A DNA stretch of 42,699 bases, taken from Bacillota bacterium. GTDB taxonomy: Bacteria > Bacillota > UBA4882 > UBA8346. This document shows positions 14,801 to 40,725 of the stretch, in pieces. The notes under the pieces are model-generated. The model saw only the letters and a program-made list of their open reading frames with translations, searched no databases and was not told the DNA's origin. The DNA lies in contig JAAYEK010000267.1 of the NCBI GenBank assembly GCA_012728785.1, positions 1 through 42,699 on the forward strand. Reading direction: 5' to 3'. Position 1 is the first letter of the stretch. Each line of letters begins with the position of its first letter. The position numbers and the translations under genes were made by a program.

Positions 14801-15331
14801 ATGGCTAATTCTGCAGTTGTAGAGAAAGACAAGTTTTTTAAAGGTTCTTCGTGCCGGAGTTTTGAGAAAATCAATGAAGTTATTGAAAGGCATGGAAAAA
14901 AACAAGCGGCGTTAATCCCGATTTTACAAGAAGTCCAGGATGAATATCGGTACTTACCTGAGGAAATATTGACTTATGTGGCGACCGCTTTAAATTTATC
15001 TCCAGCCACGGTTTATGGGGTAGCGACGTTTTACGCTCAATTTTCTTTGGAGCCTAAGGGTAAATATGTGATCAAAGTTTGCGACGGCACTGCTTGTCAC
15101 GTTAGAGGTTCCAACCCGGTGAGAGATGCGATTCGAAAACGAGTCGGACTTAACGGAGAGAAACAAACTACCAATGATCTACGTTTTACGGTAGAAACCG
15201 TCTCTTGCTTAGGCGCATGCGGATTGGCGCCTGTAGTGATGATTAATGACCAAATTTACGGACAAATGACAGCGGATGCAATTAATATCATTATCGATAA
15301 AGTATTAGAGGAAGAGGGTGAAACATGTTGA
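14801..15331 (+). CDS. hydC: [FeFe] hydrogenase NuoE-like subunit
   Basis: A 176-residue thioredoxin-like [2Fe-2S] subunit of a multimeric NAD- and ferredoxin-linked hydrogenase. It contains the four cluster cysteines in CDGTACHV and VSCLGACGLAP, and the helical NuoE N-domain (LIPILQEVQDEYRYLPEE, ATVYGVATFY). In bifurcating hydrogenases such as Thermotoga HydABC this subunit is called HydC; HndA is the equivalent in Desulfovibrio. ATG 14801 follows GAGGGGAGA. It is the first gene of hydC-hydB-hydA and overlaps hydB by seven bases, indicating coupling. Two Rex-type operators lie upstream. Confidence 0.92.
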   Translation: MANSAVVEKDKFFKGSSCRSFEKINEVIERHGKKQAALIPILQEVQDEYRYLPEEILTYVATALNLSPATVYGVATFYAQFSLEPKGKYVIKVCDGTACHVRGSNPVRDAIRKRVGLNGEKQTTNDLRFTVETVSCLGACGLAPVVMINDQIYGQMTADAINIIIDKVLEEEGETC

Positions 15332-17211
15332 TCGAGTCTGTAACTAAACTGGAGGAATTACGCGAACAATGGCGCCATGCATATCAAAAGGAACCAAATC
15401 GAATTTTGGTTTGTGCCGGTACCGGGTGTGTTGCCAATGGTTCCCTTAAGATTTACGATGCTTTAATAAAGGAGCTTTCAACTCGAGGAGTATATATTGC
15501 CGTTGAATTAATGATCGAAGAAAAATCTAGCGGCACTACAGTCGTAAAAAGCGGTTGTCACGGGTTTTGCGAAATGGGGCCCTTGGTCCGTTTGGAACCT
15601 TCAGGAGTGCTTTATACCAAAGTAAAACTAGAAGATGTTACGGAAATTGTTACCGCTTTAATTGATGGAAAAGGACCGGTAGAAAGGCTACTATATCGGC
15701 ATCCTGTTACGGATACTAGTTATGACCGGGAGCATAGTATTCCTTTTTATAACAAACAACAGCGTAACGCATTGGAAAACTGCGGTTCGATTGATCCGGT
15801 TGAAATTCGCGAATATATAGCGAAGAATGGATATGAGGCGTTAAGCAAGGTTCTGGCTATGAAACCGGAAGAAGTATGTAAGGAAGTTTTGGATTCGGGG
15901 CTTCGCGGACGGGGTGGTGGAGGTTTTCCCACCGGTAGAAAATGGGAGATGACCCGAATCGCTAAAGGAGAAAAAAAATATATAGTTTGTAACGGTGATG
16001 AAGGGGACCCGGGAGCTTTCATGGATCGGAGCGTTATGGAGGGCGACCCCTACAAACTGCTTGAAGGGATGACTATTGCCGGATATGCGATTGGTTCCGA
16101 TGAAGGTTATATTTATGTACGGGCTGAGTACCCGTTGGCTGTAGATAGATTAAAGCAAGCGATTAAAACTGCTGAAAAATGTGGAGTACTCGGTAAAAAT
16201 ATTTTAGGGACCGGCTTTAACTTTAAAATCAAAATAAAAGAAGGAGCAGGCGCTTTCGTTTGCGGAGAAGAAACCGCTTTGATAGCTTCCATTGAAGGAC
16301 AGCGGGGAATGCCGCGACCTAAGCCGCCGTTTCCGGCCCAATCTGGTCTATGGGGCAAACCGACTCTGATTAATAATGTGGAGACTTTTGCTAATATTAC
16401 CAAGATTATTCAGAAAGGCGCCGATTGGTTTAAAAATGTCGGAACTCCAAAAAGCCCCGGGACCAAGACTTTTGCCCTTACGGGTCAAGTCGCTAATACC
16501 GGGTTGATTGAAGTGCCGATGGGAACTACTCTCCGGGAGGTTGTATATGAAATCGGAGGCGGAGTCCGTGGTGGTAAAGAGTTTAAAGCGGTACAGATCG
16601 GAGGCCCTTCCGGCGGTTGTTTGACTAAAGATCATTTGGAACTTCCACTGGACTTTGATTCACTGTTATCCGTAGGGGCCATGATTGGTTCCGGCGGATT
16701 GGTGGTTATGGATGAAAACACTTGTATGGTCGAAGTGGCGCGTTTCTTTATGAACTTTACTCAGAATGAGTCTTGCGGTAAATGTGTGCCTTGCCGTGAA
16801 GGGACCAAAAGATTGTTGGAAATTTTACAACGGGCGGTCGACGGTCAAGGTAAACCGGAAGATATCGAAGTTTTAGAAGATTTGGCAATGGCTATTAAGG
16901 ATGGTTCACTGTGCGGCTTAGGTAAAACCGCGCCTAACCCGGTGTTGACTATGCTGAAATATTTTAAAGATGAATATTTAGCGCACATTATTTATAAACG
17001 TTGTCCAGCTGGTGTATGTAAAGGATTAGCCAGTTATAGTATTGATCCTAACACTTGTAAAGGATGCACCAAATGTAGTCGGGTTTGCCCGGTCGGCGCC
17101 ATTAGCGGTAAAGTAAAAGAACCATTTGTCATCGATCCGGATAAATGTATCAAGTGCGGCGCTTGTATAACGGCTTGTCCGTTTCAGGCGATTAAGGAGG
17201 GAACGCGATGA
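15325..17211 (+). CDS. hydB: [FeFe] hydrogenase NuoF-like flavoprotein subunit
   Basis: The NAD(H)- and FMN-binding subunit of the trimeric hydrogenase, the presumed site of electron bifurcation or confurcation between NADH and ferredoxin. The 628-residue product has an N-terminal thioredoxin-like [2Fe-2S] domain (CAGTGCVANGS and SGCHGFCEMGP), the FMN/NADH-binding core (GLRGRGGGGFPTGRKWE, CNGDEGDPGAFMDR, GAGAFVCGEETAL), a SLBB-like segment, the NuoF [4Fe-4S] motif ESCGKCVPCREGTK, and a C-terminal pair of 4Fe-4S motifs (CKGCTKCSRVCP and CIKCGACITACP). This domain order is that of HydB/HndC rather than complex I NuoF. It overlaps both neighbours by a few bases. Confidence 0.95.
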   Translation: MLIESVTKLEELREQWRHAYQKEPNRILVCAGTGCVANGSLKIYDALIKELSTRGVYIAVELMIEEKSSGTTVVKSGCHGFCEMGPLVRLEPSGVLYTKVKLEDVTEIVTALIDGKGPVERLLYRHPVTDTSYDREHSIPFYNKQQRNALENCGSIDPVEIREYIAKNGYEALSKVLAMKPEEVCKEVLDSGLRGRGGGGFPTGRKWEMTRIAKGEKKYIVCNGDEGDPGAFMDRSVMEGDPYKLLEGMTIAGYAIGSDEGYIYVRAEYPLAVDRLKQAIKTAEKCGVLGKNILGTGFNFKIKIKEGAGAFVCGEETALIASIEGQRGMPRPKPPFPAQSGLWGKPTLINNVETFANITKIIQKGADWFKNVGTPKSPGTKTFALTGQVANTGLIEVPMGTTLREVVYEIGGGVRGGKEFKAVQIGGPSGGCLTKDHLELPLDFDSLLSVGAMIGSGGLVVMDENTCMVEVARFFMNFTQNESCGKCVPCREGTKRLLEILQRAVDGQGKPEDIEVLEDLAMAIKDGSLCGLGKTAPNPVLTMLKYFKDEYLAHIIYKRCPAGVCKGLASYSIDPNTCKGCTKCSRVCPVGAISGKVKEPFVIDPDKCIKCGACITACPFQAIKEGTR

Positions 17212-19238
17212 ATGCTGATAATCTAGTATATATCGACAATCAGCCGGTCGAAATCGAAGGCGAAAACAATTTATTGCAATTAATCCGAAAGACCGGAATT
17301 GAACTACCAACATTTTGTTATCATTCTGAATTAAGCGTTTATGGTGCCTGCCGGATGTGCGTCGTGGAAATCGAAGGACAGGGGATTGTGGCTTCCTGTT
17401 CGACTCCTCCGCAAGCGGGGCGTAGAATTTTAACTAATAGTCCAAGGGTTCAACGGGTTAGGCGAACAGTGTTGGAACTCTTGTTGGCCAATCACGAACG
17501 GGATTGTACTACCTGTGAAAAGAACGGTCGTTGTAAATTACAGGAACTTGCCAACCGTTTTGGTATCAGTAAGGTGCGTTTTGGGGAACGGGATTTAAAA
17601 TTACCAATCGATAATTCCGGTACTTCAATTGTCCGTGATCCTAATAAATGTATTCTCTGTGGAGACTGCGTCCGGATGTGCTCGGAGGTCCAAGGGATTG
17701 GTATTTTAGACTTTAGTAATCGGGGTTCAAAAGTAACAGTCTCACCGGCTTTTGGCAAAAACATTTCTGAAATAGACTGCGTCAGCTGTGGCCAGTGTAC
17801 CGCCGTTTGCCCTACTGGAGCATTGGTGGTTAAGAAAGAAACCCATAAGGCTTGGGCGGCGTTGCATAATCCGGAACTTACAGTAGTCGCCCAGGTAGCG
17901 CCGGCAGTCCGGGTAGCTTTGGGGGAAGAGTTTGGAATTCCGGCTGGGGAAATTGTAACCGGGAAAGTAGTGGCGGCATTGAAGCGATTGGGCTTTAATA
18001 AAGTGTTCGATACTAGTTTGACTGCGGATTTGACTGTTATCGAAGAAACCCATGAATTTCTGAAGCGGTTGGAGAATAATAAGCGCTTACCGCAATTTAC
18101 TTCTTGTTGTCCAGCATGGGTGAAATATGCTGAATATAATGCTCCCGAACGCCTTCATCAGCTGTCATCCTGTCGGTCGCCACAACAAATGTTTGGTTCG
18201 TTGGTTAAAAAGCATTGGGCCAAATCTCTTGGGAAGAAGCCAAGTGAGATTTATGTAATATCAATTATGCCTTGTACCGGTAAAAAGTATGAAGCGGCCC
18301 GGCCCGAGTTTTCCGAGGATAAGGTGAGAGATGTTGATCTGGTGTTGACCACCCAAGAAGTAGCTCAAATGATCCGGGAGTTTGGTTTGGATTTCGTTAA
18401 TCTGGATGCCGAGTCTTTTGATATGCCACTTGGATTCACCACCGGCGCCGGAGTGATCTTTGGGGCTAGCGGAGGCGTGGCGGAAGCTACCTTACGTTAC
18501 GCCTATGAGATCGTCAGTGGAGAAACGTTGGAACAGGTCAATTTTGAAGCGGTTAGAGGCTTTAAGGGTTTAAAAGAGACTTCCGTCAATTTAAATGGCC
18601 GTGAAATTAGGTTAGCGGTAGTCCATGGCCTTGGTAATGTTAAAAAACTGCTTCAAAAGATGAAAGAAGGCAAGGCTGAGTATGATCTAATTGAAGTAAT
18701 GGCTTGTCCCGGAGGTTGCATCGGAGGCGCCGGCCAACCAATAGCGGGTACTGAGGTAAAACAGGCTCGGGGACGCGCTATCTATAAAGCCGATAAGTTA
18801 TCTCAATTACGTAAATCCCAAGATAATCCCATCGTAACGCGGTTATATCAGAATTGGCTGGAGAAGCCGGGTAGCGAACAAGCTCATCATAGTTTGCATA
18901 CCAAGTATCATCCTAGAGTCAAGATTAAGGGCGAGGATATCGAGCTGATGACCGGCGTGGAAGAAGATAAAGTAGATATTGCAGTTTGTGTAGGTACATG
19001 TTGTTACCAAAAAGGCTCTTATGATACTTTGCGGGAGTTTATGAAACAGGCCGAACAGTTGAATCTGAGCGAACGAGTTAAGCTCCATGCTACTTTTTGT
19101 TTGGAAGGATGCCGGCATAGCCCGTCGGTAAAGATTGATGGAGAAATTTTGGAGGAAGTCTTGCCGGATAAGGTGGAATCAATCCTTAAGACTAAAGTTT
19201 TAAGTCGTGTTAAGCGCGGAAACTTGAAAACTGTCTAA
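17208..19238 (+). CDS. hydA: [FeFe] hydrogenase catalytic subunit, trimeric A3-like
   Basis: The hydrogen-producing subunit. The N-terminal [2Fe-2S] domain (CYHSELSVYGACRMC) is followed by a His-Cys3 [4Fe-4S] site (HERDCTTCEKNGRC) and two 4Fe-4S motifs (CILCGDCVRMC and CVSCGQCTAVCP). The H-cluster domain carries all three signatures: TSCCPAW, MPCTGKKYE and MACPGGCIGGAGQP. A C-terminal extension with CVGTCC and CLEGC looks like another [2Fe-2S] thioredoxin-like domain, as in the large subunits of bifurcating hydrogenases. The 676-residue length fits group A3. The start ATG overlaps the hydB stop by four bases (ATGA) and follows GGAGGG. Maturation genes hydE, hydF and hydG are not in the window. 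Function in reoxidising NADH and ferredoxin during fermentation is inferred from the family. Confidence 0.96.
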   Translation: MNADNLVYIDNQPVEIEGENNLLQLIRKTGIELPTFCYHSELSVYGACRMCVVEIEGQGIVASCSTPPQAGRRILTNSPRVQRVRRTVLELLLANHERDCTTCEKNGRCKLQELANRFGISKVRFGERDLKLPIDNSGTSIVRDPNKCILCGDCVRMCSEVQGIGILDFSNRGSKVTVSPAFGKNISEIDCVSCGQCTAVCPTGALVVKKETHKAWAALHNPELTVVAQVAPAVRVALGEEFGIPAGEIVTGKVVAALKRLGFNKVFDTSLTADLTVIEETHEFLKRLENNKRLPQFTSCCPAWVKYAEYNAPERLHQLSSCRSPQQMFGSLVKKHWAKSLGKKPSEIYVISIMPCTGKKYEAARPEFSEDKVRDVDLVLTTQEVAQMIREFGLDFVNLDAESFDMPLGFTTGAGVIFGASGGVAEATLRYAYEIVSGETLEQVNFEAVRGFKGLKETSVNLNGREIRLAVVHGLGNVKKLLQKMKEGKAEYDLIEVMACPGGCIGGAGQPIAGTEVKQARGRAIYKADKLSQLRKSQDNPIVTRLYQNWLEKPGSEQAHHSLHTKYHPRVKIKGEDIELMTGVEEDKVDIAVCVGTCCYQKGSYDTLREFMKQAEQLNLSERVKLHATFCLEGCRHSPSVKIDGEILEEVLPDKVESILKTKVLSRVKRGNLKTV

Positions 19239-21555: not shown

Positions 21556-22782
21556 TTAATAGGAGTTTTGATTACCTGGATTTGCACCCAGTAACTTGCT
21601 TAAAGCTGCCGAAGCCAGCTCAATCTTGCCGTATTCCTTAATCTTATCCATATCCCTGGCTAAGAGCGCCTGGCCGAAGTCGATGGAGACTCCCAGATAA
21701 TCGGCGAGCACTTGAGCTAAACGTTCCTGGCTAAGAGTGTCAAGATAGTTCCAATCTTGGACCATGATACTTTCCGCTTCAGCCGGGTCCAGTCCCATAT
21801 CCACCAAACGATTGTAGAGGCTGCCTTTCAAAGTGTCTTTTACTGAATCCCAGTCGCCGGCCATGATTGCGGCAATCTGGTCCCGGTCCAAGCGGCCTTG
21901 TATCGAGGCGCTAATCTGGGAAAGTAGGTCGTTTTTGGTGATCTTACCAAAAGCTTTTAAGAATTTTACATCTCCGGATTGTTCTGAGATAACAGTAACT
22001 TCGTCCCCTTTAATCAGATCTTCCATTGGAGCGTTAACGTTGTTGCGAATCAAAACTGTTTCCGGAGTAACCAAGACCATTAACGGATCGTTACCGGATT
22101 CTTTTTGGATATTCATTAAGCCACTTCCGGCATCGACCTGACTGAGTTTTCCTTTTGAGACCTCCAACCCTTTTACAGCTTGAATCATCCAAGCGGCTTC
22201 ACCTCTAGTAACAGCCTGCTCGGGGTGGAACTCGGTTTGATATTCCGGGGGTAGTAATCCGAATTTGTTGCTGAGTTCGATATAACGAAAAGCCCAATGA
22301 TCATTGGAAACATCAACGAAACTGGCAGGCCAATCTTGACCGAACTTTTCTTCCGGTTTGGCCAGGTTCAAAACTCGGGCGATAAAAGTGGTTAACTGAG
22401 CGCGATTAACCGCTTTCTCCGGCTGAAAATTACCGTCGTTAAAACTGTTCATCACTTTTGCTTCGGCCATAGCGTTCATATAAGGGGCAGCCCAATGAGG
22501 GCCGATATCCGGATATTTACTGCCGGTTACCGGTTGATAGCCCAGGGCTTTACTGAGCATTTTGGATAATTCTGCTCTGGTAACCGCCTGATCCGGTTTG
22601 AAAGTCCCATCCGGGTATCCGTTAATCACCTCTTGGTCCGCTAAGTTTTGAATCGGTTTGGCAGCCCAGTGGTTCTGGATATCGGATAAAGCTACACTCG
22701 CATGAACCTGAGTGCAAAAAAACAGTGAGATAACTAGGGAAAGCATTAACATCAAGTTGAATTTCTTTTGAGTAATAAACAT
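21556..22782 (-). CDS. Secreted protein with three SLH domains
   Basis: A 408-residue exported protein anchored to the cell wall by surface-layer-homology domains. The start at 22782 follows AAAGGAG and gives a signal peptide (hydrophobic LMLMLSLVISLFF, then HA before the mature protein). Three SLH repeats follow over roughly residues 30-215, with NHWAAKPIQNLADQEVINGYPDGTFKPDQAVTRAE-type sequence; each has the conserved W, GY or equivalent and TRAE/NRAQ/TRGE signature. The middle part (DPLMVLVTPETVLIRN) may form a small beta domain. The C-terminal third is helical, with repeated DWxxxD-like motifs, and of unknown function. A TATAAT -10 sequence lies upstream on the minus strand at 22859-22854. 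SLH proteins link envelope layers in diderm Firmicutes, which fits the barrel proteins elsewhere in this window. Confidence 0.88.
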   Translation of the reverse strand: MFITQKKFNLMLMLSLVISLFFCTQVHASVALSDIQNHWAAKPIQNLADQEVINGYPDGTFKPDQAVTRAELSKMLSKALGYQPVTGSKYPDIGPHWAAPYMNAMAEAKVMNSFNDGNFQPEKAVNRAQLTTFIARVLNLAKPEEKFGQDWPASFVDVSNDHWAFRYIELSNKFGLLPPEYQTEFHPEQAVTRGEAAWMIQAVKGLEVSKGKLSQVDAGSGLMNIQKESGNDPLMVLVTPETVLIRNNVNAPMEDLIKGDEVTVISEQSGDVKFLKAFGKITKNDLLSQISASIQGRLDRDQIAAIMAGDWDSVKDTLKGSLYNRLVDMGLDPAEAESIMVQDWNYLDTLSQERLAQVLADYLGVSIDFGQALLARDMDKIKEYGKIELASAALSKLLGANPGNQNSY

Positions 22783-22974
22783 CGATATTTCTCCTTTCGT
22801 CACGGTATTATCGGTAACTAAAACACAAATATCAGACAATCGTTTTACATAAGATTATATCAGGTTATTCTCGTTTTAGCAGGGGGTTCCTGTATGTAAT
22901 TGCTGGTAGGAATGGTTGCAAGAATAGTTTTTGGAACATATCGGAGGTACAATATTGGGTGTCAATGGAATGCC

Positions 22975-25827: not shown

Positions 25828-26100
25828 AAGCGTTAAGTAAAGATCATCAATCATTTAGTCTCAATCATCAAACGATATATGAAAATAACTAGACGATAGG
25901 TAAAAATCATTAATCGTTAAGTGATTTTTACCAAACGATAAGTAAAATTTACTAAATGATTGGTCTCAATCATTAAATGATTAATATAAATCACCAAACG
26001 TTAAGTGATAATCATTAAACGATAGATTTCGGTTATCAAATGATTGGTAATTGTTATTAAAGGTTAAGTCCCAATCACTAAAGGGAATGTTTCAGTCATT
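25828..26100. repeat. Degenerate tandem array, 13 units of 21 bp
   Basis: The 273 bases divide exactly into 13 successive 21-bp units without insertions. Most units begin AAACGAT, AAATGAT or AAACGTTA, often continue AAGT, and end in ATCATT, ATCACC or TTACT. Individual units differ at many positions, but the period is strict. The AATCATT end of one unit and the AAATGATT start of the next form short dyads; one perfect example pairs 25955-25962 with 25967-25974. Diverged, slightly out-of-phase unit-like sequence also occurs at 25763-25804. On the minus strand one frame is partly open with heptapeptides like NDFYLSF, but it is broken by four stop codons. It lies upstream of the PAP2 gene. Confidence 0.85.
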
Positions 26101-26517: not shown

Positions 26518-26734
26518 GAAAACTATCCCTCATATGAACTTGTAATAGACCTCAATAATCTGCGCCTCAGCCCCATAAATCATGCTATTTGATACTCACC
26601 ATAATTCCGTTGTGACATAAAATAATAGTGAAAATTGAATTGGAAATCAAGCCCTAGATGTGATTGGATCAGTTATTGGGAGAAAAACCGATTCATTTTG
26701 TCATATATATTTAATAAAAAACGGAAATAAGGTG

Positions 26735-27772
26735 ATGTTGGTGGAGGGAAACAGTAATATCGCCCAATTTAGTTTGAAACCGGGAGTAGCCGGGCAACTT
26801 TCGGACGTTACCATATCAGTCCCGATGATGGAGGCGATTACTCCTAGGTGGTTATCAACTTTTTTACCCTGGACTCCGGTGAAGACAGGTGTCTACCGGA
26901 TTAACCGGTTAAAAAAGCAATGCGAAGATCAAGACGGCGATCGTCAAACCCAAAATGAAATAGAATCAAAGGGTTCCACTCACCGTTATGATGAATGCGG
27001 TGATAAGTTAGCCGACCTGGTAGCGTGCCCTAACGGAGAGTCCGATTTACCATTGACCTTTGCCGATTATTGTGAAAAGCCCCGGGAGATTCCGTTAAGT
27101 AGGATTCAAACCATCCTGAGGATTAATACAGCAGTCTCCGATATCTATAACGTCCCCCTTAACCAGACCCAACAGCAGATGCGATTGATAATTGAAGCTA
27201 TTTTAGAGCAACAAGAATGGGAGCTGGTTAATAATAACGACTTTGGTTTGATTCACTCAGTAGCCCCCAAAATGCGGTTAGCGACCCGGAAAGGCCCTCC
27301 GACCCCGGATGATCTGGATGAACTGCTTTCCCGAGTCTGGAAAAAACCGGCCTTCTTTTTAGCTCATCCCCGGGCAATCGCGGCCTTCGGTCGGGAATGT
27401 ACCCGGCGCGGCGTGCCGCCGCCTACGGTTAACCTGTTTGGATCGCCCTTCGTCACTTGGCGGGGAGTACCGTTAGTTCCCAGCGATAAGCTGTTGGTCA
27501 ACGGTAGAACTATCCCGGAAACAACTTCGGGGACCACCAATATCTTACTGATGAGAGTCAGCGAATCGGAACAAGGGGTGGTCGGTTTACATCAGCCCGG
27601 GATTCCGGAGGAACAAGATAAACCAAGCTTATCCGTGAAGTTCAGCGGGATTGATAATAGGGGAATCTCAAACTATGTGTTGAGTCTCTATTTTTCATTA
27701 GCCGTATTAACCGATGACGCCTTGGGAATGTTGGAAAATGTCGAGGTGGGCTCTTATTATGACTATGATTAA
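26735..27772 (+). CDS. Family 2A encapsulin shell protein
   Basis: A HK97-fold protein that should self-assemble into an icosahedral protein compartment. The 345-residue product matches the SrpI-like family 2 encapsulins: an N-terminal arm, then ITPRWLSTFLPWTPVKTGVYRINR (about 36-57), a central region with FLAHPRAIAAFGRECTRRGVPPPTV and FVTWRGVPLVPSDK, and the C-terminal segment GVVGLHQPGIPEEQ through SLYFSLAVLTDDALGMLENVEVG. I see no cyclic-nucleotide-binding insertion, so subfamily 2A rather than 2B. ATG 26735 is used; GTG 26741, with AGGTGA five bases upstream, is an alternative that shortens it by two residues. The next gene, a cysteine desulfurase, overlaps its 3' end and is the classic cargo of this subfamily. 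Confidence 0.88.
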   Translation: MLVEGNSNIAQFSLKPGVAGQLSDVTISVPMMEAITPRWLSTFLPWTPVKTGVYRINRLKKQCEDQDGDRQTQNEIESKGSTHRYDECGDKLADLVACPNGESDLPLTFADYCEKPREIPLSRIQTILRINTAVSDIYNVPLNQTQQQMRLIIEAILEQQEWELVNNNDFGLIHSVAPKMRLATRKGPPTPDDLDELLSRVWKKPAFFLAHPRAIAAFGRECTRRGVPPPTVNLFGSPFVTWRGVPLVPSDKLLVNGRTIPETTSGTTNILLMRVSESEQGVVGLHQPGIPEEQDKPSLSVKFSGIDNRGISNYVLSLYFSLAVLTDDALGMLENVEVGSYYDYD

Positions 27773-29144
27773 TGCGAAATCATTGACTCGGCCGGCCAAT
27801 GCCATAGGCCATTCTACTCTAGGAACGAACGATGTTTCGAAGGACCTCAGCGATTCCTATTATTTTTTGAAAGCATCAAACCGGGATGACCTTACCTTAC
27901 TAGGCCAATCACCGGATTTAACCTATAATGTCCAAGGGATCCGTGAGGATTTCCCCATTCTCCAACGAAAAGTCAACGGACATCCTCTGATTTGGTTCGA
28001 TAATGCCGCTACTACTCAAAAGCCGCAAGTGGTGATTGAGGCTTTAGAGAAGTTTTACCGCCAGTCCAATTCCAATGTTCATCGGGGCGCTCATTCCTTG
28101 GCTACCGAAGCCACCAATGCTTATGAAACCGCTCGGGAAAAAGTCCGCCATTTCTTGGGCGCATCCTCAACCGCGGAGATCGTTTTCCTACGGGGTACCA
28201 CCGAGGCTATTAATTTGGTGGCCCAAACATATGGCCGGAAGGTAGTGGGCCAAGGAGATCAGATCCTTCTCACTGCTATGGAGCATCATTCCAATATTGT
28301 GCCCTGGCAATTATTGCAAGAGGCGACCGGAGCAATTATCCAAGCGGTTCCCATTACTAAAGCAGGCGAAATCGACTTGGGTGAATATGAAAAGCTCCTA
28401 ACTCGGCGGCCGAAGATAGTTGCAATCACCCATGTATCCAATGTCCTGGGGACGATCAACCCCATCCGGAAAATGGTCGCAATGGCCCATCATTACGGGG
28501 CTTGTGTATTGGTGGACGGCGCTCAAGCCGTGGCCCACTTGCCGGTGAATGTCAGGGAATTGGACGCGGATTTCTATGTTTTTTCCGGTCATAAAATCTA
28601 TGGGCCCACGGGAATTGGAGTTCTCTACGGGAAAAAAGCTTTGCTGGAAGAAATGCCTCCTTGGCAAGGTGGAGGTAGTATGATCGATCGGGTTACCTTT
28701 GAGGAGACTAATTATAATAAGCTGCCTTACAAGTTTGAGGCTGGGACCGGGAATATCGCCGATGCCGTGGGTTTAGGAGCGGCAATTGACTATCTCCAAA
28801 AAATTGGCCGCTCTGCGATTGAAGGTTATGAGAGAGAAATAACGAGATATGCCATGAGTGAATTAGCTAGAATTCGGGGAGCGCGTCTGTTCGGAAGATC
28901 AAAGTTGAAAACCAGTGTTATTTCTTTTTTGGTTGACGGGATTCCACCGGAAGATTTGGCCTGGGATTTGGATCGACAAGGAATTGCGACCCGGGTTGGT
29001 CACCATTGCGCCCAACCGCTGATGCGGTATTACGGTATTGAGGGCGCCATCCGGGCATCCTTAGGGATTTATAATACTAGGGAAGAGATTGACTTGTTGG
29101 TGGAAACAATTAGAAGGGTGTTACAGGGAGCTTTTTTAATGTAA
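27759..29144 (+). CDS. SufS-like cysteine desulfurase, encapsulin cargo
   Basis: A PLP enzyme that takes sulfur from cysteine, forming alanine and an enzyme persulfide. Catalytic features are intact: the PLP lysine in FSGHKIYGPTG (Lys 279), the EHHSN stacking histidine, and the nucleophile in RVGHHCAQPLM (Cys 417), a type II/SufS-like site. The first 55 residues, before the usual SufS start at YNVQGIREDFPIL, are polar and low in order; such extensions load this enzyme into family 2A encapsulins. It is shorter than some described extensions. ATG 27759 follows GAGGTGG by nine bases and overlaps the encapsulin stop by 14 bases, so the two are co-translated. No sufBCD or iscU lies nearby, supporting a role in the compartment rather than routine Fe-S assembly. 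Confidence 0.92.
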   Translation: MTMINAKSLTRPANAIGHSTLGTNDVSKDLSDSYYFLKASNRDDLTLLGQSPDLTYNVQGIREDFPILQRKVNGHPLIWFDNAATTQKPQVVIEALEKFYRQSNSNVHRGAHSLATEATNAYETAREKVRHFLGASSTAEIVFLRGTTEAINLVAQTYGRKVVGQGDQILLTAMEHHSNIVPWQLLQEATGAIIQAVPITKAGEIDLGEYEKLLTRRPKIVAITHVSNVLGTINPIRKMVAMAHHYGACVLVDGAQAVAHLPVNVRELDADFYVFSGHKIYGPTGIGVLYGKKALLEEMPPWQGGGSMIDRVTFEETNYNKLPYKFEAGTGNIADAVGLGAAIDYLQKIGRSAIEGYEREITRYAMSELARIRGARLFGRSKLKTSVISFLVDGIPPEDLAWDLDRQGIATRVGHHCAQPLMRYYGIEGAIRASLGIYNTREEIDLLVETIRRVLQGAFLM

Positions 29145-29261
29145 ACCGACATAAATGAAATAGTTAATGATAACTGCGACAAGGATATGGATGGGGATGC
29201 CATTAAAAGGCATAACTGTTGACTTTACATAAAGAAATTTGAAGTGTCTTGATTAACTCTG

Positions 29262-29290
29262 ATCCGCCATTATGGCAGGATTTTTTTTTT
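29262..29290 (+). terminator. Intrinsic terminator between the desulfurase and xseA
   Basis: ATCC-GCCA (29262-29269) pairs with TGGC-GGAT (29273-29281, one bulged A) around a TTA loop, followed by ten T. It ends 41 nt before the xseA start. Confidence 0.85.
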
Positions 29291-29330
29291 AATTATGGAA
29301 TACCCTTTATATTATGAAAGGAGCATTCTT

Positions 29331-30907: not shown

Positions 30908-31990
30908 TTGGCTGTAAATCGAGGAGAGTTTATCCAAGCATTGCGGGAACGTGAGGCTAAATTGGTCGAACTGATTAATCGGGATCAATACCGTCGGAGT
31001 TTTAATCCGGAGGAATTAAGGGAAGCGGTTTACTCTTATTTAAATCGGCCGGCCAAACGGCTCCGCCCGGGAATCCTTCTTTTTTCCTGTGGAGCGGTTG
31101 GCGGCGACGAGCAACGCGCACTTTCAGCCGCTGCTGCTGTGGAAGTCTACCATACTTGGACTTTAGTTCATGACGATATCATCGATAATGATTCTAAAAG
31201 ACGCGGGTTTCCAACATTGCACGAGCAATTTCGGGGAAACGCCTTAAATGAAGGCTATTCCGAAGGGGAGGCGGCGGATTATGGCCGGAATATGGCAATC
31301 TTAGCCGGGGATCTGCAACATGCCTGGTCGATGCAGTTGATTTGGGAATCGATCAACTCCGGAGTCAGCAGCGCAGTAGTCTTGGATTTGCTCGCCAGGT
31401 TAACCAATCTTACCAAAGGTTTGTTGGAAGGAGAGGCGTTGGACGTTCTTTTTTCAAAACGAAAGATCGATGATCTCAAGGAAATGGAGATCTTAAAGAT
31501 GTTGGAGTTAAAAACCGGTATATTATATGAGTTTGCCGGTATTGTTGGAGCTTCAATCGGCTTGGACCGGACTATTGATGAAAACAATCTGATTCAGGCG
31601 ATAGGTTCTTTTGCCCGTAAATGCGGCGTCGCCTTTCAGCTTCAGGACGATATTTTAGGGATTACCGGTGATGAAAAGCGTTTAGGAAAACCCATCGGCT
31701 CCGATATTCGGGAAGGTAAACGGACGGTCATAGTATTACATGCCTTTCAACAAGCTGATGATAAAGACCGTGATTATTTACTTAAGTGGTTGGGCAATCC
31801 GGCGGTGTCCGGAGAAAAAATTGAGAAAATAAAGCAGATGCTGATTGAATATAATGGAGTAGAATATGCCAAAAAGATGGCCGATCAGATTGTAAATGAG
31901 GCAATTGAAGAACTTGCCCCTATTCCTGAGTCGCAATACAAAAACTTATTATTGGCTTGGGCCGATTATGTGGCTGATCGGCAGGTGTGA
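30908..31990 (+). CDS. ispA: Polyprenyl (farnesyl/geranylgeranyl) diphosphate synthase
   Basis: Condenses IPP with allylic diphosphates to make C15-C20 isoprenoid chains. The 360-residue product has the first aspartate-rich motif DDIID in LVHDDIIDND, preceded by KRLRPGILLF, and the second in QLQDDILGITGDEKRLGKPIGSDIREGKRT. Lengths and spacing suit a short-to-medium chain synthase; exact product length cannot be read from the sequence alone. TTG 30908 follows AAGGGGGA. It is separated from xseB by an inverted-repeat element. Downstream come DUF212, the OLE RNA, oapA and dxs, so it belongs to an isoprenoid cluster. The symbol is given by context; another prenyl synthase name is possible. Confidence 0.85.
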   Translation: MAVNRGEFIQALREREAKLVELINRDQYRRSFNPEELREAVYSYLNRPAKRLRPGILLFSCGAVGGDEQRALSAAAAVEVYHTWTLVHDDIIDNDSKRRGFPTLHEQFRGNALNEGYSEGEAADYGRNMAILAGDLQHAWSMQLIWESINSGVSSAVVLDLLARLTNLTKGLLEGEALDVLFSKRKIDDLKEMEILKMLELKTGILYEFAGIVGASIGLDRTIDENNLIQAIGSFARKCGVAFQLQDDILGITGDEKRLGKPIGSDIREGKRTVIVLHAFQQADDKDRDYLLKWLGNPAVSGEKIEKIKQMLIEYNGVEYAKKMADQIVNEAIEELAPIPESQYKNLLLAWADYVADRQV

Positions 31991-32847: not shown

Positions 32848-32860
32848 GAACTTACAAATG

Positions 32861-33466
32861 AGGGGATGGTGTAGTATCCTAGTCAGGGTGACCATCTTTG
32901 AAGACGGGCCTAAAAATCCGTTGCGGGCACATCGATGAAGTCCCTGGTGCTGGCCGCCGACGCCCAGTCGGGAGTTGGTGCTGGGGGTTAAGGGGATGGG
33001 GCGATCTACAATGGCATGTAGGCGTTGACCCCACCACCGTGGAGGCCCAAGTGCGTGGGAATCCCGCGAAAGCGAGCGTGAACTACGGCTTGGGGGTAAA
33101 CCTGCATGTGGTACGGTATTTGATTACTTAGTATCGGTGCAGTGTAGCCTGCCTTGAGCGGTTTGGGAGGAAATGGGTATCAAGTCATCAGTTTCTGCAG
33201 AACGAAGTGACTCTCCGCCATTAAACCCAATCTCGCAAAAGAGGCTAGATGATGGGACGCCTTGTGAGGAAAACTCCTAGGCTATTCAATGCTTTGAGTT
33301 CCATTGGGGATTGCAGTGTGGACTAAGTGGTAATCCAGTCTCGTTTCTGGCGACAAAACGGAACTGCCTTAAAGGGGAACCACCTTGGCGGTGACGCTGA
33401 GGAGGCAGTTGGGAAAACCTACTGGACCTAAGCCATAATTTTTACTCAGTGGGATACCATCCCTTC
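32861..33466 (+). ncRNA. ole: OLE RNA (ornate large extremophilic RNA)
   Basis: A long, GC-rich, non-coding segment in an AT-rich intergenic space. Its ends pair: GGGATGGT (32863-32870) with ACCATCCC (33456-33463), extended by flanking pairs, enclosing about 600 nt, which is the usual OLE size. It has its own promoter (start near 32854) and terminator (to 33557). Many internal GC-rich inverted segments fit a complex fold. Directly downstream is a membrane-protein gene matching OapA, the OLE partner, then dxs, with ispA upstream: the setting described for OLE in Bacillus halodurans and other Firmicutes. In those species OLE-OapA forms a membrane-associated complex needed for growth under cold or short-chain alcohol stress. 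A 77-codon open frame inside it is spurious. Identification rests on size, terminal pairing and context, not a covariance model. Confidence 0.85.
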
Positions 33467-33536
33467 ATTTACATAGTGTTCCATACTTATTAATATTAGA
33501 TTTCGACACTTAATAGACATTCTTTGGTTTATCCCT

Positions 33537-33606: not shown

Positions 33607-34182
33607 TTGTTTACCAATTTATTTCGGGCTTTAAAAATTAGCATTTTATCTTTTGTGATCTCCTTGACCATCTCGTTTCTATCGGGCTCTTCGTTGGGAT
33701 TTTGGCTTTCGGTAACAGTATTGTTAGTGGTGATCTTGACCGGAATTATCTTTGATATCATCGGTACCGCCGTTACCGCTGCCACTGAAACTCCGTTTCA
33801 TGCTATGGCTGCCGATAAGGTGAAAGGGTCCAAACAAGCCATTTACCTAATTAGATCCGCAGACCGGGTGGCGAATATCTGTAACGATGTTGTGGGAGAC
33901 ATTGCCGGGACCCTTAGCGGAGCATTAATGGTGGGAATAGTATTTGACTTTGCTAATGTCTTTCAGGGATTAGGTGAGGATTTATTAAGTTCAATAGCGG
34001 TCGCACTGATAGCTGCTTTAACTGTAGGCGGTAAAGCATTTGGTAAATCTTATGCTATCAATAATGCTAACCAGATAATATTCACGGTTGGCAAAGGTTT
34101 CTCTCTTTTTAAGATTAATTTTCAAGCCAAGATGGCTAAACAAAAGAAGAAAGGAAATTCACGAAAGGTAAGACGGAATTAA
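33607..34182 (+). CDS. oapA: OLE-associated membrane protein OapA
   Basis: The protein partner that anchors OLE RNA to the membrane in characterised Firmicutes. The 191-residue product has two N-terminal membrane helices (LSFVISLTISFLSG and FWLSVTVLLVVILTGIIFDII), then the conserved TAATETPFHAMAADKVKGSKQA segment resembling the DUF21-like group, and two further hydrophobic segments (GTLSGALMVGIVF and LLSSIAVALIAALTVGG). A strongly basic tail (KMAKQKKKGNSRKVRRN) could contact RNA. TTG 33607 follows AGGTGA. It overlaps dxs by one base (TAATG), so it is coupled to isoprenoid synthesis. Assignment is supported by the OLE RNA directly upstream. Confidence 0.85.
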   Translation: MFTNLFRALKISILSFVISLTISFLSGSSLGFWLSVTVLLVVILTGIIFDIIGTAVTAATETPFHAMAADKVKGSKQAIYLIRSADRVANICNDVVGDIAGTLSGALMVGIVFDFANVFQGLGEDLLSSIAVALIAALTVGGKAFGKSYAINNANQIIFTVGKGFSLFKINFQAKMAKQKKKGNSRKVRRN

Positions 34183-36903: not shown

Positions 36904-37572
36904 TTGGCAAAAAAAAGATTTCTAACTTTGATGATGATTGGGTTATTGCTAATTCCGACCAGAGCAGCTTTTGGTTATGGAGTATTCGGCTCCAGCGACC
37001 TAATGATTACTCCTTCAACAGCGACACTTAACGCTAATGATACCGGTTTTGCCCTTAACTTCGCCGAGGGGGATGTAACTTTATTCAACCTTGATTACGG
37101 CCTAATATCGGACTTGGAAATCGGGTTGTCGGTGTTAAACTATGATGATGACCGACCTTGGAGCGATGGCGGTGAGACCTATGTGACCCTTCGCGGTAAA
37201 TACCGTTTGCTGCGTGAGACGTCATCCGCTCCGGCTTTGGCCATTGGGATCCAGGACATTGGTGAAGAAGATTTGGATGTCTCGCCTTACTTAGTAATTT
37301 CTAAAAATCTAGGACCAGATTTAGATGTTGATGGTTATCTTGGTGTCGGGGGCGGAGCAATAGACGGGATATTCGGGGGTTTGAGTAAAATCTTTAGGAT
37401 CAGCCCCGCCCAGAGAGGCAGTAATAATTTGTCCAGGATCCAGTTGATTCTGGAATTTGATTCCGATAACATGAACCTGGCCACAAGATTTCAGATCGGA
37501 CCCCGCATGAAAATCAACTTTGGTTTTTACGATATGGAAAACTGGATGGTGGGGATGACTTATACGATCTGA
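36904..37572 (+). CDS. YjbH-like outer-membrane beta-barrel protein
   Basis: A 222-residue exported protein. The signal peptide (RFLTLMMIGLLLIPTRAAFGYG) is followed by GSSDLMITPSTATLNANDTGFALNF and repeated alternating strands (LEIGLSVLNYDDD, VTLRGKYRLL, PALAIGIQDIG, LDVDGYLGVGGG, TRFQIGPRMKINFGFYD), ending MVGMTYTI. Alternating hydrophobic strands with tyrosine and glycine suggest an eight-stranded or similar barrel; the opening resembles YjbH-type barrels. Such a protein implies an outer membrane. TTG 36904 follows AGGAGGGA. The exact role is unknown; polysaccharide export is known only for larger YjbH proteins. Confidence 0.7.
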   Translation: MAKKRFLTLMMIGLLLIPTRAAFGYGVFGSSDLMITPSTATLNANDTGFALNFAEGDVTLFNLDYGLISDLEIGLSVLNYDDDRPWSDGGETYVTLRGKYRLLRETSSAPALAIGIQDIGEEDLDVSPYLVISKNLGPDLDVDGYLGVGGGAIDGIFGGLSKIFRISPAQRGSNNLSRIQLILEFDSDNMNLATRFQIGPRMKINFGFYDMENWMVGMTYTI

Positions 37573-37612
37573 AGTCAGAAGACAGAAGTCAGAAGTCGGA
37601 AGTGACGGTTGA
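37573..37612. repeat. Short AGAAGTC-type direct repeats
   Basis: Immediately after the barrel gene, GTCAGAAG-like octads are repeated about four times with small changes. It resembles the low-complexity tract at 31991-32222 in style. The remaining 37613-37700 is unremarkable. Confidence 0.5.
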
Positions 37613-37709
37613 CTCAAGAAAGGACTTTCGGGACTCTTGATCGTGTTAAACAAAGCGGTGTCCGCACTCGTAACGATTAGGGAGAACGATAGGGAAAAAT
37701 ACAAGTTAA

Positions 37710-37735
37710 AACGGCCCACTAAAGGCCGTTTTTTT
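37710..37735 (+). terminator. Intrinsic terminator before the second barrel gene
   Basis: AACGGCC (37710-37716) pairs with GGCCGTT (37724-37730), followed by a run of T to 37735. Confidence 0.85.
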
Positions 37736-37839
37736 AGAATTATTTATTCAATGGTTTGAGACTTATGCCGGATTAATAGATGTTAAAAAAGTCACCATAA
37801 TCATTAATACGATTAATATGGGGAAAGAGAAAGAACTTT

Positions 37840-38733
37840 ATGAAAAAGGTTACTATTTTAGCTTTAAATGTGATATTTTTATTATTTTCAACAAGATTTA
37901 CCCTAGCCGACTCCGGTTGGGAAGTGTCAATCCAAGAATGGGATCTGGCCGGTTTTTTTGACTATACCCTTTATTATCCTTACTCCTCCCAAGTGATTTC
38001 CGAAGTAAAATTGCCCCAAAACCAATTAATGACTATCTTGAAGGCCAAGTACGTCTCTGCTACTGAAAAAAACTATCTTGGGTTGGTGTATGGCGGGACA
38101 GATACTAGGCTTAAGGGAAGGGGTTCCGACTCCGATTGGATGATTGAAGGTTCGGATCTATTAACCGATTATGGCGAATTGAACGCCTTTGGCAAGCAGA
38201 AGATAGCAGAGGTCGATTTGGGTAGGATGATCCTTAAGAATGAGACCCATCAAACCAACCTTTTTTTGGGTTGGGTCAGACAGAATACTACTAATGAACT
38301 AAGAGATATTGTTTATCAACTTAGCGAGGGGAATGACCTTGGAAACCAACCCCAACCGGATAATGGGAGTTATCTTAATGGAGAATTTAGCGGATTAATA
38401 CTGGGAATCAATGAGACTTATAAAGTCAAGCCAAATTTATTATTAACCGCAGAGCTGAAAGGGTCATTTTTAAATGCCAAGGCTTATGGACACTGGGCCA
38501 ACCACATTCCGGCCTGGAATTGGGAGAATACCGGTAACACGTTGGGTTATGGAGCTGATGTTGCTTTAAAATATACTTTCAACAGTAATATCCGGGCTGA
38601 GTTGGGCTACTACTATAATTACGCTAACTTTTCCGGTTGCAATGAAATACTTAACGGAGAATTAATACCGCAATTGGTCGACTTGAAATATGAGCGTAAA
38701 GGGTTGTATGCCGGAATGGTTTTGTTGTTTTGA
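37840..38733 (+). CDS. Putative outer-membrane beta-barrel protein
   Basis: I do not recognise a named family with certainty. The 297-residue product has a signal peptide (VTILALNVIFLLFSTRFTLA) and many amphipathic strands separated by polar, turn-rich loops (LMTILKAKYVSATEKNYLGLVYG, TNLFLGWVRQ, FSGLILGINETYKVKPNLLLTAELKGSF, GADVALKYTFNSNIRAELGYYYNY). The last residues YAGMVLLF end in phenylalanine, the classical beta-signal of outer-membrane proteins. An omptin-like or Protochlamydia-type barrel is possible, since no protease residues could be identified. ATG 37840 follows a purine-rich GGGGAAAGAGAAAG stretch. It stands between two terminators or promoters as a single gene. Confidence 0.65.
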   Translation: MKKVTILALNVIFLLFSTRFTLADSGWEVSIQEWDLAGFFDYTLYYPYSSQVISEVKLPQNQLMTILKAKYVSATEKNYLGLVYGGTDTRLKGRGSDSDWMIEGSDLLTDYGELNAFGKQKIAEVDLGRMILKNETHQTNLFLGWVRQNTTNELRDIVYQLSEGNDLGNQPQPDNGSYLNGEFSGLILGINETYKVKPNLLLTAELKGSFLNAKAYGHWANHIPAWNWENTGNTLGYGADVALKYTFNSNIRAELGYYYNYANFSGCNEILNGELIPQLVDLKYERKGLYAGMVLLF

Positions 38734-38856
38734 GTGGTATTAAGATACGACACAAACTTGAGTAAAGTTTTTCATGCTCCCCTTTTCTGATCGTTTCCCC
38801 GGAAAAAATGATTGTTACTTTTCAATTAAAAAAATATGACCATAATTACAACAATC

Positions 38857-38885
38857 TTGACAGGTTTAGGGAAAAAGCATATCAT
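38857..38885 (+). promoter_or_regulatory. Sigma-A promoter of the tetR-type gene
   Basis: A perfect TTGACA (38857-38862), a 17-bp spacer, and TATCAT (38880-38885). The start near 38892 is just before the palindromic operator. Confidence 0.7.
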
Positions 38886-38898
38886 GATTATATAATAA

Positions 38899-38923
38899 AT
38901 GAATATTTTATTAACATATTCAC
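38899..38923 (+). promoter_or_regulatory. Candidate TetR-regulator operator at its own gene
   Basis: ATGAATA-N11-TATTCAC, 25 bp with six of seven arm positions complementary (all seven if the outer A/C is ignored). It lies between the predicted transcription start and the ribosome-binding site. A copy with the same spacing precedes the adaptor gene. Confidence 0.65.
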
Positions 38924-38935
38924 AAGGAGATTGGA

Positions 38936-39526
38936 ATGTCCGAAGACCGTAAAACAGAAATCTTACAAGCTTTCATGAAACTGGTCAGCCGATTCGGCTT
39001 GGAGAAAACGACGATACAGGATATTGCCAAGGATGCCGGGGTCAGTGTCGGAGTCATCTATAAAGACTATGCCAATAAAGATGAGTTAATTGATGCTTAT
39101 GCCAACCTCGTGGTTGAAAAAATCATCGATGACTATCGCGATCTGATTGATGAAAATAAATCTCCGGAAGAGCAATTGTACGATCTGATCATTGGTTCGG
39201 TAAAGATTATCCACCACTACTTACTTGATGATCTAGGGATTCAGCAAATTTTGGCAGATGATATTTCCCTGAAGTATGTCCGTAAAAATTACTCGCGAAA
39301 AGCTGAAATTAAAAAGTGCTTTGTTAGTCTGGTAAATGATATTATGCAGGACGGGGTCGAACAGGGAGTATTTCAAATTAAAGATGTGCCTCTGACGGCA
39401 GAGTTGTTTTTGGATGCGTTTCAAGGATATTATATGAGTATTTTGTTTGAAGAAAACTACGTTGATCAGCTTTTAGAAAAGCGCGAGGCGATGTTCAGAT
39501 TTTTAATAAAAAACCTCAAACGGTAG
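38936..39526 (+). CDS. TetR/AcrR-family transcriptional regulator
   Basis: A 196-residue dimeric repressor that likely controls the efflux genes downstream. The N-terminal helix-turn-helix is typical: ILQAFMKLVSRFGLEKTTIQDIAKDAGVSVGVIYKDYANKDELI. The C-terminal helical domain would bind a ligand and is not similar enough to a known regulator to name one. ATG 38936 follows AAGGAG. It is immediately upstream of the adaptor and RND genes on the same strand, and matching palindromes lie before both, supporting autoregulation and control of the pump. Confidence 0.9.
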   Translation: MSEDRKTEILQAFMKLVSRFGLEKTTIQDIAKDAGVSVGVIYKDYANKDELIDAYANLVVEKIIDDYRDLIDENKSPEEQLYDLIIGSVKIIHHYLLDDLGIQQILADDISLKYVRKNYSRKAEIKKCFVSLVNDIMQDGVEQGVFQIKDVPLTAELFLDAFQGYYMSILFEENYVDQLLEKREAMFRFLIKNLKR

Positions 39527-39543
39527 TTTTTTTTTGACTCCCC

Positions 39544-39568
39544 GTGAATAAAATAAAATATTATTCAC
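39544..39568 (+). promoter_or_regulatory. Candidate TetR-regulator operator before the efflux genes
   Basis: GTGAATA-N11-TATTCAC, 25 bp with perfect seven-base arms. It is the same motif as at 38899-38923. It overlaps a likely promoter region (TTGACT at 39534-39539; TATTAT at 39559-39564 with a long 19-bp spacer), so binding would block transcription. Confidence 0.7.
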
Positions 39569-39687
39569 AATTAACAAATTCATTGTTATGAATAGTCAAT
39601 AATTTTTAAAGAGGTGATGAGTACAAAAGTTATTTTCTTTAGTAAATAAATTGTCTAATATAAGAGTTTAATTAAGGAGGAAATGTT

Positions 39688-40725
39688 TTGAAAAAAGTAA
39701 TCATAATAGTTCTAGTTTGTTCTTTATTCTCTTTTACTGGTTGTATCTTCGGCAACAAGCAGGAAACTAGCTTCAAAAGTATGGAGCAGCTCCACCAGGA
39801 AAATGGTGTTCCGGTAAAAATCCAAGAAGTTAGAGCCGATGAGTTTGTAGCAGAATTGAAATACTCCGCTACCTTACGGGCGCGTTCCGAAGCAGTACGG
39901 TATGCCGGAATCGCGGATGTGGTCCAAGAGGTCCTTTTCAATGTCGGGGATTATATCCGGGAAAATGAAACCGTGCTAACTTTTCCGGAAAACAATCAAG
40001 GCGCCCAATACCATCAAATAAAAGCCAGTTATGAATTGGCCGAGGCGACCTACAAACGGATGGAAAAGATGTATCAGGAAGGGGTAATCTCCAAACAAGA
40101 TTTGGACTCCGCCCGTGCTAATTTTGAAATAACCCGTGCCAATCTGAACGCAACGGATGACGTAATCCGGGTGAAAGCGCCGTTAAACGGGTACATAACC
40201 CAGCTAAACGTCAAACCCACCGATAATGTAAGTCCGGGCTTTCCCTTGTTTACCGTTTCCAATCTCGATCTGATCGAAGCTCAGATTTGGGCTTCATCGA
40301 AAGAGGCGGATCAGATTAAAGTCGGCCAGAAAGTCACTTTGGAATGGGATGGTAAACTGATTGAAGGCTCAGTAATTCAGGTCAGTCAAATCATGGATGT
40401 TAATCGCAAAGCATTTGAAGTTAAAGCCTTATTTAAAAACCCGGATAAGGTTTTGACCAGCGGGATCACAGCTGATATTTCAATTCGGACTTATAATAAT
40501 GCTCAAGCAGTGGTAGTGAGTCGAAAGAACCTGATTGAAGAAGGCGGTAAGCGTTTTATCTATGTCGTCAATAATGGTATGGCTGTTAAAAGGGAGGTCT
40601 CGGTAGGAAGGGAGCAGGGTGCGCTCATTGAAGTCAACTCAGGATTAAAATCGGGTGAGTTTATCATTACCGAAGGCAATAAAATGGTGGAGGATCAGAT
40701 CAAAGTTAAAATTATCAATTCGTAA
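39688..40725 (+). CDS. RND efflux periplasmic adaptor lipoprotein (HlyD/AcrA-like)
   Basis: The membrane-fusion protein that joins an RND pump to an outer-membrane channel. The 345-residue product has a lipoprotein signal peptide with lipobox FTGC, so it is anchored to the membrane by lipid on Cys 19. A barrel-sandwich/lipoyl half (VVQEVLFNVGDYIRENETVL) is followed by a helical hairpin (YHQIKASYELAEATYKRMEKMYQEGVISKQDLDSARANFEI), the second lipoyl half (VKAPLNGYITQLNVKPTDNVSPG), and the beta-barrel and membrane-proximal domains. TTG 39688 follows AAGGAGG by seven bases. The RND gene begins 32 nt downstream. No outer-membrane TolC-like gene is visible before the window ends. Confidence 0.93.
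   Translation: MKKVIIIVLVCSLFSFTGCIFGNKQETSFKSMEQLHQENGVPVKIQEVRADEFVAELKYSATLRARSEAVRYAGIADVVQEVLFNVGDYIRENETVLTFPENNQGAQYHQIKASYELAEATYKRMEKMYQEGVISKQDLDSARANFEITRANLNATDDVIRVKAPLNGYITQLNVKPTDNVSPGFPLFTVSNLDLIEAQIWASSKEADQIKVGQKVTLEWDGKLIEGSVIQVSQIMDVNRKAFEVKALFKNPDKVLTSGITADISIRTYNNAQAVVVSRKNLIEEGGKRFIYVVNNGMAVKREVSVGREQGALIEVNSGLKSGEFIITEGNKMVEDQIKVKIINS

Follow-up and report, generated by a model that had tools for sequence, protein, structure and literature searches.

A two-gene encapsulin and cysteine desulfurase unit of a Bacillota bacterium whose shell fits family 2A by domain content and groups with family 2B shells in phylogeny

Organization of the encapsulin-desulfurase locus

Within the window, by which we mean the whole stretch of 42,699 nucleotides analysed here, two overlapping genes on the forward strand code for an encapsulin shell and a cysteine desulfurase (Table 1). 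The shell ORF (26735-27772) is open and yields 345 aa when read from the ATG at 26735, the cargo ORF (27759-29144) is open and yields 461 aa, and the two share the 14 nt from 27759 to 27772, in agreement with the 14-base overlap given in the initial annotation. An overlap of 14 nt is ordinary for such units; it was also found in the family 2A unit of Azospirillum and in the family 2B unit of Kitasatospora. Translation of the shell more likely begins at the GTG at 26741 (343 aa), because an AAGGTG lies about 7 nt upstream of this codon and a TTG is aligned with it in a sister species of the same genus (L014, genome G001), where the ATG is not conserved. The gap upstream of the shell gene measures 880 nt, of which a single 52-nt block is kept in the sister species (86.5% identical to L014 640-691), the adjoining sequence being unmatched. 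This gap also contains AT-rich direct repeats, degenerate and some 21 nt long with a unit like AATCATTAAACGATTAATAT, at 25968-26023 (within 25880-26090). The hairpin behind the cargo gene has a folding energy of -9.6 kcal/mol (z -2.85 against shuffles) and was missed by a simple terminator scan, which permits no bulge. An RNA regulator of the encapsulin unit was considered and rejected, as the only Rfam match in the window is an OLE RNA located elsewhere.

Table 1. Features of the encapsulin-desulfurase unit and the basis of each assignment
Feature	Position	Strand	Basis
52-nt block 5' of shell gene, candidate promoter or regulatory site	26577..26628	+	sister-species conservation
Family 2 encapsulin shell gene	26735..27772	+	PF19307, encap_f2a, encap_f2b, PDB 6x8m
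40-residue insert, residues 60-99, at the E-loop CBD site of 2B shells	26912..27031	+	63-shell alignment
Putative linker scar DECGDKLADLV, residues 86-96	26990..27022	+	insert tails, 63 shells
Shell residues F303 to Y314, equivalents of SrpI F262 and Y273	27641..27676	+	alignment
GAGGTGG, likely cargo-gene ribosome-binding site, within shell gene end	27743..27749	+	sequence
SufS-type cysteine desulfurase, predicted encapsulin cargo	27759..29144	+	sufS TIGR01979; begins inside shell gene
Disordered N-terminal tail, residues 1-55	27759..27923	+	SufS homology start, AlphaFold pLDDT
Decayed first motif SLTRPANAIGHS, residues 8-19, in the LARLANEFFS place	27780..27815	+	motif score
YYFL (residues 34-37, within SDSYYFLKAS), short linear motif that may bind the shell	27858..27869	+	matches AASPYYFLDG
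PLP lysine K279 (SGHK)	28593..28595	+	invariant in 35 cargos
Catalytic cysteine C417 (GHHCAQP)	29007..29009	+	invariant in 35 cargos
Hairpin with a U tract behind it, likely terminator of the two-gene unit, ahead of xseA	29261..29291	+	folding energy

Identity of the shell protein

The shell protein matched the SrpI-like family PF19307 with 347 bits, and the profile search for family 2A was passed with 425 bits on NCBIfam encap_f2a (cut-off 380); the family 2B model encap_f2b was passed too, with 418 bits (cut-off 400). Its best solved relatives are SrpI (PDB 6x8m, E 2.6e-103) and the A. baumannii shell 8t6r, and a Foldseek search with the structure model of the shell, which is a weak one (pLDDT 58.5), returned 2A shells first, with 8t6r and 6x8m on top, and 2B shells after them. 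The profile matches together with 6x8m confirmed the earlier view that the gene encodes an SrpI-like encapsulin, a protein shell of viral descent. The SrpI pore residues G194 and P196 are conserved, and so are F262 and Y273, which in SrpI are found close to cargo density around the threefold axis (PMC8049743). A phage capsid origin was rejected, since a search of 50,697 phage records gave matches only in two large Acinetobacter bins (CAKLQH020000001.1 and CAKLQF020000001.1), each of which holds the usual bacterial shell-desulfurase pair; it may be noted that NZ_CP077849.1, a 3.66-Mb Acinetobacter record, seems to be a chromosome rather than the plasmid that its label states.

By the domain rule, a family 2A encapsulin is a shell without a cyclic-nucleotide-binding domain (CBD) (PMC8346489). 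The window shell gave no PF00027 match, does not carry the CBD that marks the E-loop of family 2B shells, and has only a 40-residue insert at this site, as compared with 12 residues in SrpI and about 171, the CBD included, in 2B shells. However, canonical 2A shells scored 523-536 bits on encap_f2a, against 425 for the window shell and 434-451 for its CBD-less kin in the Bacillota.

The E-loop insert and the descent of shell and cargo

The insert of the window shell ends in RYDECGDKLADLVACP, a degenerate version of the sequence NEYGEKxI found after the CBD of 2B shells. The 2B linker ends in NEYGEKLIDTHSGE, and a matching end, for example CNEYGEKLIKMSSGH, was read in other CBD-less Bacillota shells. 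Among the 63 shells compared, this linker end occurred in 2B-side shells whether or not they carry a CBD, and was absent from canonical 2A shells. PF00027 was detected at the insert site in each of the five Bacillota shells with a CBD that were tested, whereas the CBD-less ones gave no match, and the Bacillota CBDs formed one clade, consistent with their shells.

A scan of genome contigs yielded 332 relatives, many of them metagenome bins, of which 80 were kept. In the unrooted tree of 63 shells, calculated with the insert columns left out, canonical 2A shells (SrpI, Acinetobacter, Azospirillum and others) were split with support 100/99 from all 2B shells together with two CBD-less groups. The window shell fell within a Bacillota clade (support 100/100) made up of ten shells without a CBD and seven with one. 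It sides with CBD-bearing shells in the tree and retains the post-CBD linker end. The AU test rejected the union of CBD-less Bacillota and canonical 2A shells (dlnL 66, p 5.6e-6), and likewise a topology in which every CBD-less shell falls into one clade (dlnL 203, p 9e-5). A single CBD-less clade within the Bacillota was not rejected (p 0.054), so that loss within the Bacillota need not have been repeated. All three p-values are generous, as the groups were picked after the tree was seen. In the cargo tree the canonical 2A cargos formed one clade (SH-aLRT 99) and the Bacillota cargos were mixed irrespective of the CBD. The two trees agree, and in neither did the window protein cluster with the SrpI lineage. 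Thus, combined together, shell phylogeny, cargo phylogeny, insert sequence and profile scores suggest that the shell-desulfurase pair belongs with family 2B systems by descent, and the label family 2A, under which the unit was initially annotated, holds for the absent CBD and not on any of these four counts.

Among the closest known systems, the sister species L014 has a shell 85% and a cargo about 80% identical to those of the window, and shares the downstream xseA, the CBD-less shell and the same linker end. Petroclostridium (L028), Pseudobacteroides (L029) and HGW-Firmicutes-7 (L039) fall in the same Bacillota shell clade, and L028 and L039 share the cargo group of the window (L029 was left out of the cargo tree); all three have short tails with YYF and stand-alone two-gene units as in the window, but unlike it carry a CBD in the shell E-loop. 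The Streptomyces 2B shells (9bhu, 9bje, 9bix) have a homologous HK97 domain and actinobacterial kin on the 2B side of the tree, and differ from the window shell in having the CBD; in S. lydicus the shell is known to be two-component (PMC12407261).

CBDs that are homologous, nearly equal in length and placed at the same site occur in the Bacillota clade and in several others, and the simplest reading is a single CBD insertion followed by later loss. The window shell is thus best read as a 2B-side shell that has lost its CBD and retained a linker scar. We considered whether the CBD-less Bacillota shells might instead be ancestral intermediates which retain the linker as it was before the insertion and never lost a domain. 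Such a history would fit a linker end that occurs both with and without a CBD, an unrooted tree and the compatibility of the data with one CBD-less Bacillota clade; it has to accommodate CBD-bearing shells inside that same clade, with same-site homologues in several others, for which one gain plus losses is simpler, and we regard it as unlikely. Transfer of the domain by recombination could mimic either CBD loss or the ancestral state.

A second CBD-less group was observed on the 2B side (L048, L053, L054, L063 and L089, from Nitrospira and Verrucomicrobia). In several of its shells the linker end is of the NEFGE type, and L109, a Methylobacterium shell with a CBD, branches within the group; an independent CBD loss is possible there.

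The desulfurase and its N-terminal tail

The cargo scored 581 bits on sufS TIGR01979 (cut-off 475), both the PLP lysine and the catalytic cysteine are present, and the SufS homology begins at residue 54-60, which bears out the SufS-like enzyme with a 55-residue N-terminal extension that had been proposed. On the cargo model f2_encap_cargo1 (NF041166) it reached 696 bits, below the cut-off of 800. Seven cargos of Bacillota relatives tested on this model likewise gave 692-725 bits, all below 800, as against 826-873 for canonical cargos; a short tail by itself does not account for these low scores, since one canonical cargo, that of Aliarcobacter, scores 826 and so passes with a tail of roughly 100 residues.

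AlphaFold gave pLDDT below 50 at residues 1-29 and 37-54 of the cargo and a locally higher confidence for residues 30-36, exactly LSDSYYF. Nichols et al. named two conserved motifs in the tail, LARLANEFFS and AASPYYFLDG (PMC8049743). Set against this description of 2A cargo, with two motifs in a long tail, the window cargo has the YYFL, which is conserved in Bacillota cargos, a decayed first motif and a tail of 55 residues. In leave-one-out scoring the first motif reached 3.8 bits, as compared with 8.2-28.6 bits for true sites, and that of the sister species (LPAQLVQGIYHG), whose tail is about 30 residues longer, is also weak (4.7 bits). A YYF element without a recognisable first motif was noticed in L022, L024, L027, L028 and L039, and by eye in L029.

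The tail had been proposed to show the minimal loading signal, and this stands in part: one recognised motif is retained beside a decayed second, but the tails of L029 and L039 are shorter still, and in S. elongatus GFP was loaded by residues 1-100 but not by CyD 155-183, the YYFL stretch on its own (PMC8049743). Across the relatives, the shell position corresponding to F262 and the cargo YYFL showed no clean covariation, which, like the GFP result, counts against the reading favoured below. Loading in the window system would then rely on dimer avidity or on co-adaptation of shell and tail, or else be weak or absent. The last of these options, in which the tail is a decaying remnant, the desulfurase works as a free enzyme and the shell is empty or otherwise filled, draws on the short tail with its decayed first motif, on the published insufficiency of the YYFL stretch and on the cargo model score below cut-off. 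We nevertheless hold it to be distinctly unlikely, as Bacillota relatives keep shell and desulfurase genes adjacent and mostly overlapping, the shell and cargo trees agree, and the YYFL has been retained in a tail about 30 residues shorter than that of the sister species.

A different element, YFPEF, was observed near the tail start of three canonical 2A cargos that do not have YYFL (L104, L099 and L100, from Aliarcobacter and two Bacillota genomes), and is possibly another loading signal.

Proposed function of the compartment

The explanation that we favour for the unit as a whole, and consider probable, is that a 2B-lineage shell without a CBD packages the desulfurase through the YYFL tail. 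In this scheme the HK97-fold encapsulin would self-assemble, probably as a T=1 particle of 60 subunits by analogy with SrpI, and would take up the desulfurase encoded by the gene that overlaps its own. Uptake would depend on the disordered N-terminal tail of the enzyme, in which the short linear motif YYFL would be the chief element for shell binding still left. The desulfurase, which should be dimeric as other SufS enzymes are, would withdraw sulfur from cysteine inside the shell, and the freed sulfur may be passed to a lumenal store or carrier. The E-loop CBD of the ancestral 2B shell would have been lost, leaving the linker scar, and the shell would on that account now fit the domain-based definition of family 2A.

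The unit could also be an ordinary canonical family 2A system with an SrpI-type shell and the known cargo in which the tail is merely shortened; the missing CBD, the slightly larger margin on encap_f2a than on encap_f2b and the cysteine desulfurase cargo agree with this, but the AU rejection of that shell grouping, the cargo tree, an encap_f2a score well below those of true 2A shells and the 2B-type linker end make it very improbable. The canonical SrpI-CyD system of S. elongatus (6x8m, 6x8t) does resemble the window unit in its SrpI-family HK97 shell (51% identity), the adjacent cysteine desulfurase gene and a disordered cargo tail with a YYFL-like motif. It differs in belonging to the canonical 2A shell and cargo clades, in a linker of 12 residues instead of 40, in a cargo tail of 225 residues instead of 55, and in its neighbours, namely serine acetyltransferase, cysteine synthase and rhodanese.

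Sulfur storage has reportedly been studied in Acinetobacter, and such desulfurase cargos have later been described as involved in it. In S. elongatus encapsulation raises the turnover of the desulfurase about sevenfold (PMC8049743).

A bolder proposal, which we put forward tentatively as something that may well turn out otherwise, is that family 2A in its current definition is polyphyletic, shells of the 2B side having repeatedly lost the CBD and kept a recognisable linker scar, and that loading has here shrunk to a single YYFL, with the avidity of the dimer replacing the two-motif tail. If the favoured explanation is true, the CBD-based division into 2A and 2B departs from descent and function is not to be read from the label. 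Related shells with and without a CBD around the same kind of cargo would offer a natural comparison for the role of the sensor domain, and the short tails would isolate the loading signal to one known motif in about 55 residues on a native enzyme. The lineage thereby tests the requirement for loading against the published result with the YYFL stretch.

Genomic neighbourhood and host

No sulfur gene, and in particular no rhodanese, CysE or Suf gene, was detected by Pfam among the ten flanking ORFs, and the rest of the window, read by eye, was in keeping with the earlier statement that no SufBCD system, serine acetyltransferase or rhodanese lies nearby. The proposal of a two-gene unit is further supported by the Bacillota relatives, where shell and desulfurase stand alone in varying surroundings and no conserved operon partner was seen by eye. 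Such a shell was found in 6 of 398 sampled genomes of the phylum, the host included. The polyprenyl synthetase at 30908-31990 was rejected as a terpenoid cargo of the 2B type: the gene order around it, xseA-xseB-synthetase and then dxs at some distance, looks ordinary, and a long tail was also not obvious.

CysE, one SufB/D-like gene and an IscS adjoining IscU were all located on other contigs of the genome. General iron-sulfur supply likely falls to IscS-IscU. No other desulfurase of the genome exceeds the SufS cut-off, and the window enzyme is encoded away from IscS-IscU, which would fit a dedicated sulfur role for it.

The host is probably anaerobic, since no haem-copper oxidase was found in the genome and the window carries a hydrogenase-like set (14801-19238) of three genes which by eye resemble NuoE, NuoF and [FeFe]-hydrogenase, as in electron-bifurcating hydrogenases; this set also supports a hydrogen-metabolising host. 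Outer-membrane-like beta-barrel proteins, a TetR regulator and an RND-type adaptor were recognised by eye at 36904-40725, and these, together with the SLH-domain protein at 21556-22839, suggest that the host is possibly a two-membrane Bacillota. The OLE RNA lies at 32850-33476 on the forward strand (RF01071, 470 bits). On its 3' side the ORF 33607-34182 encodes a 191-aa membrane protein, followed by dxs; this protein, which gave a weak CNNM match, may be the OLE RNA partner OapA.
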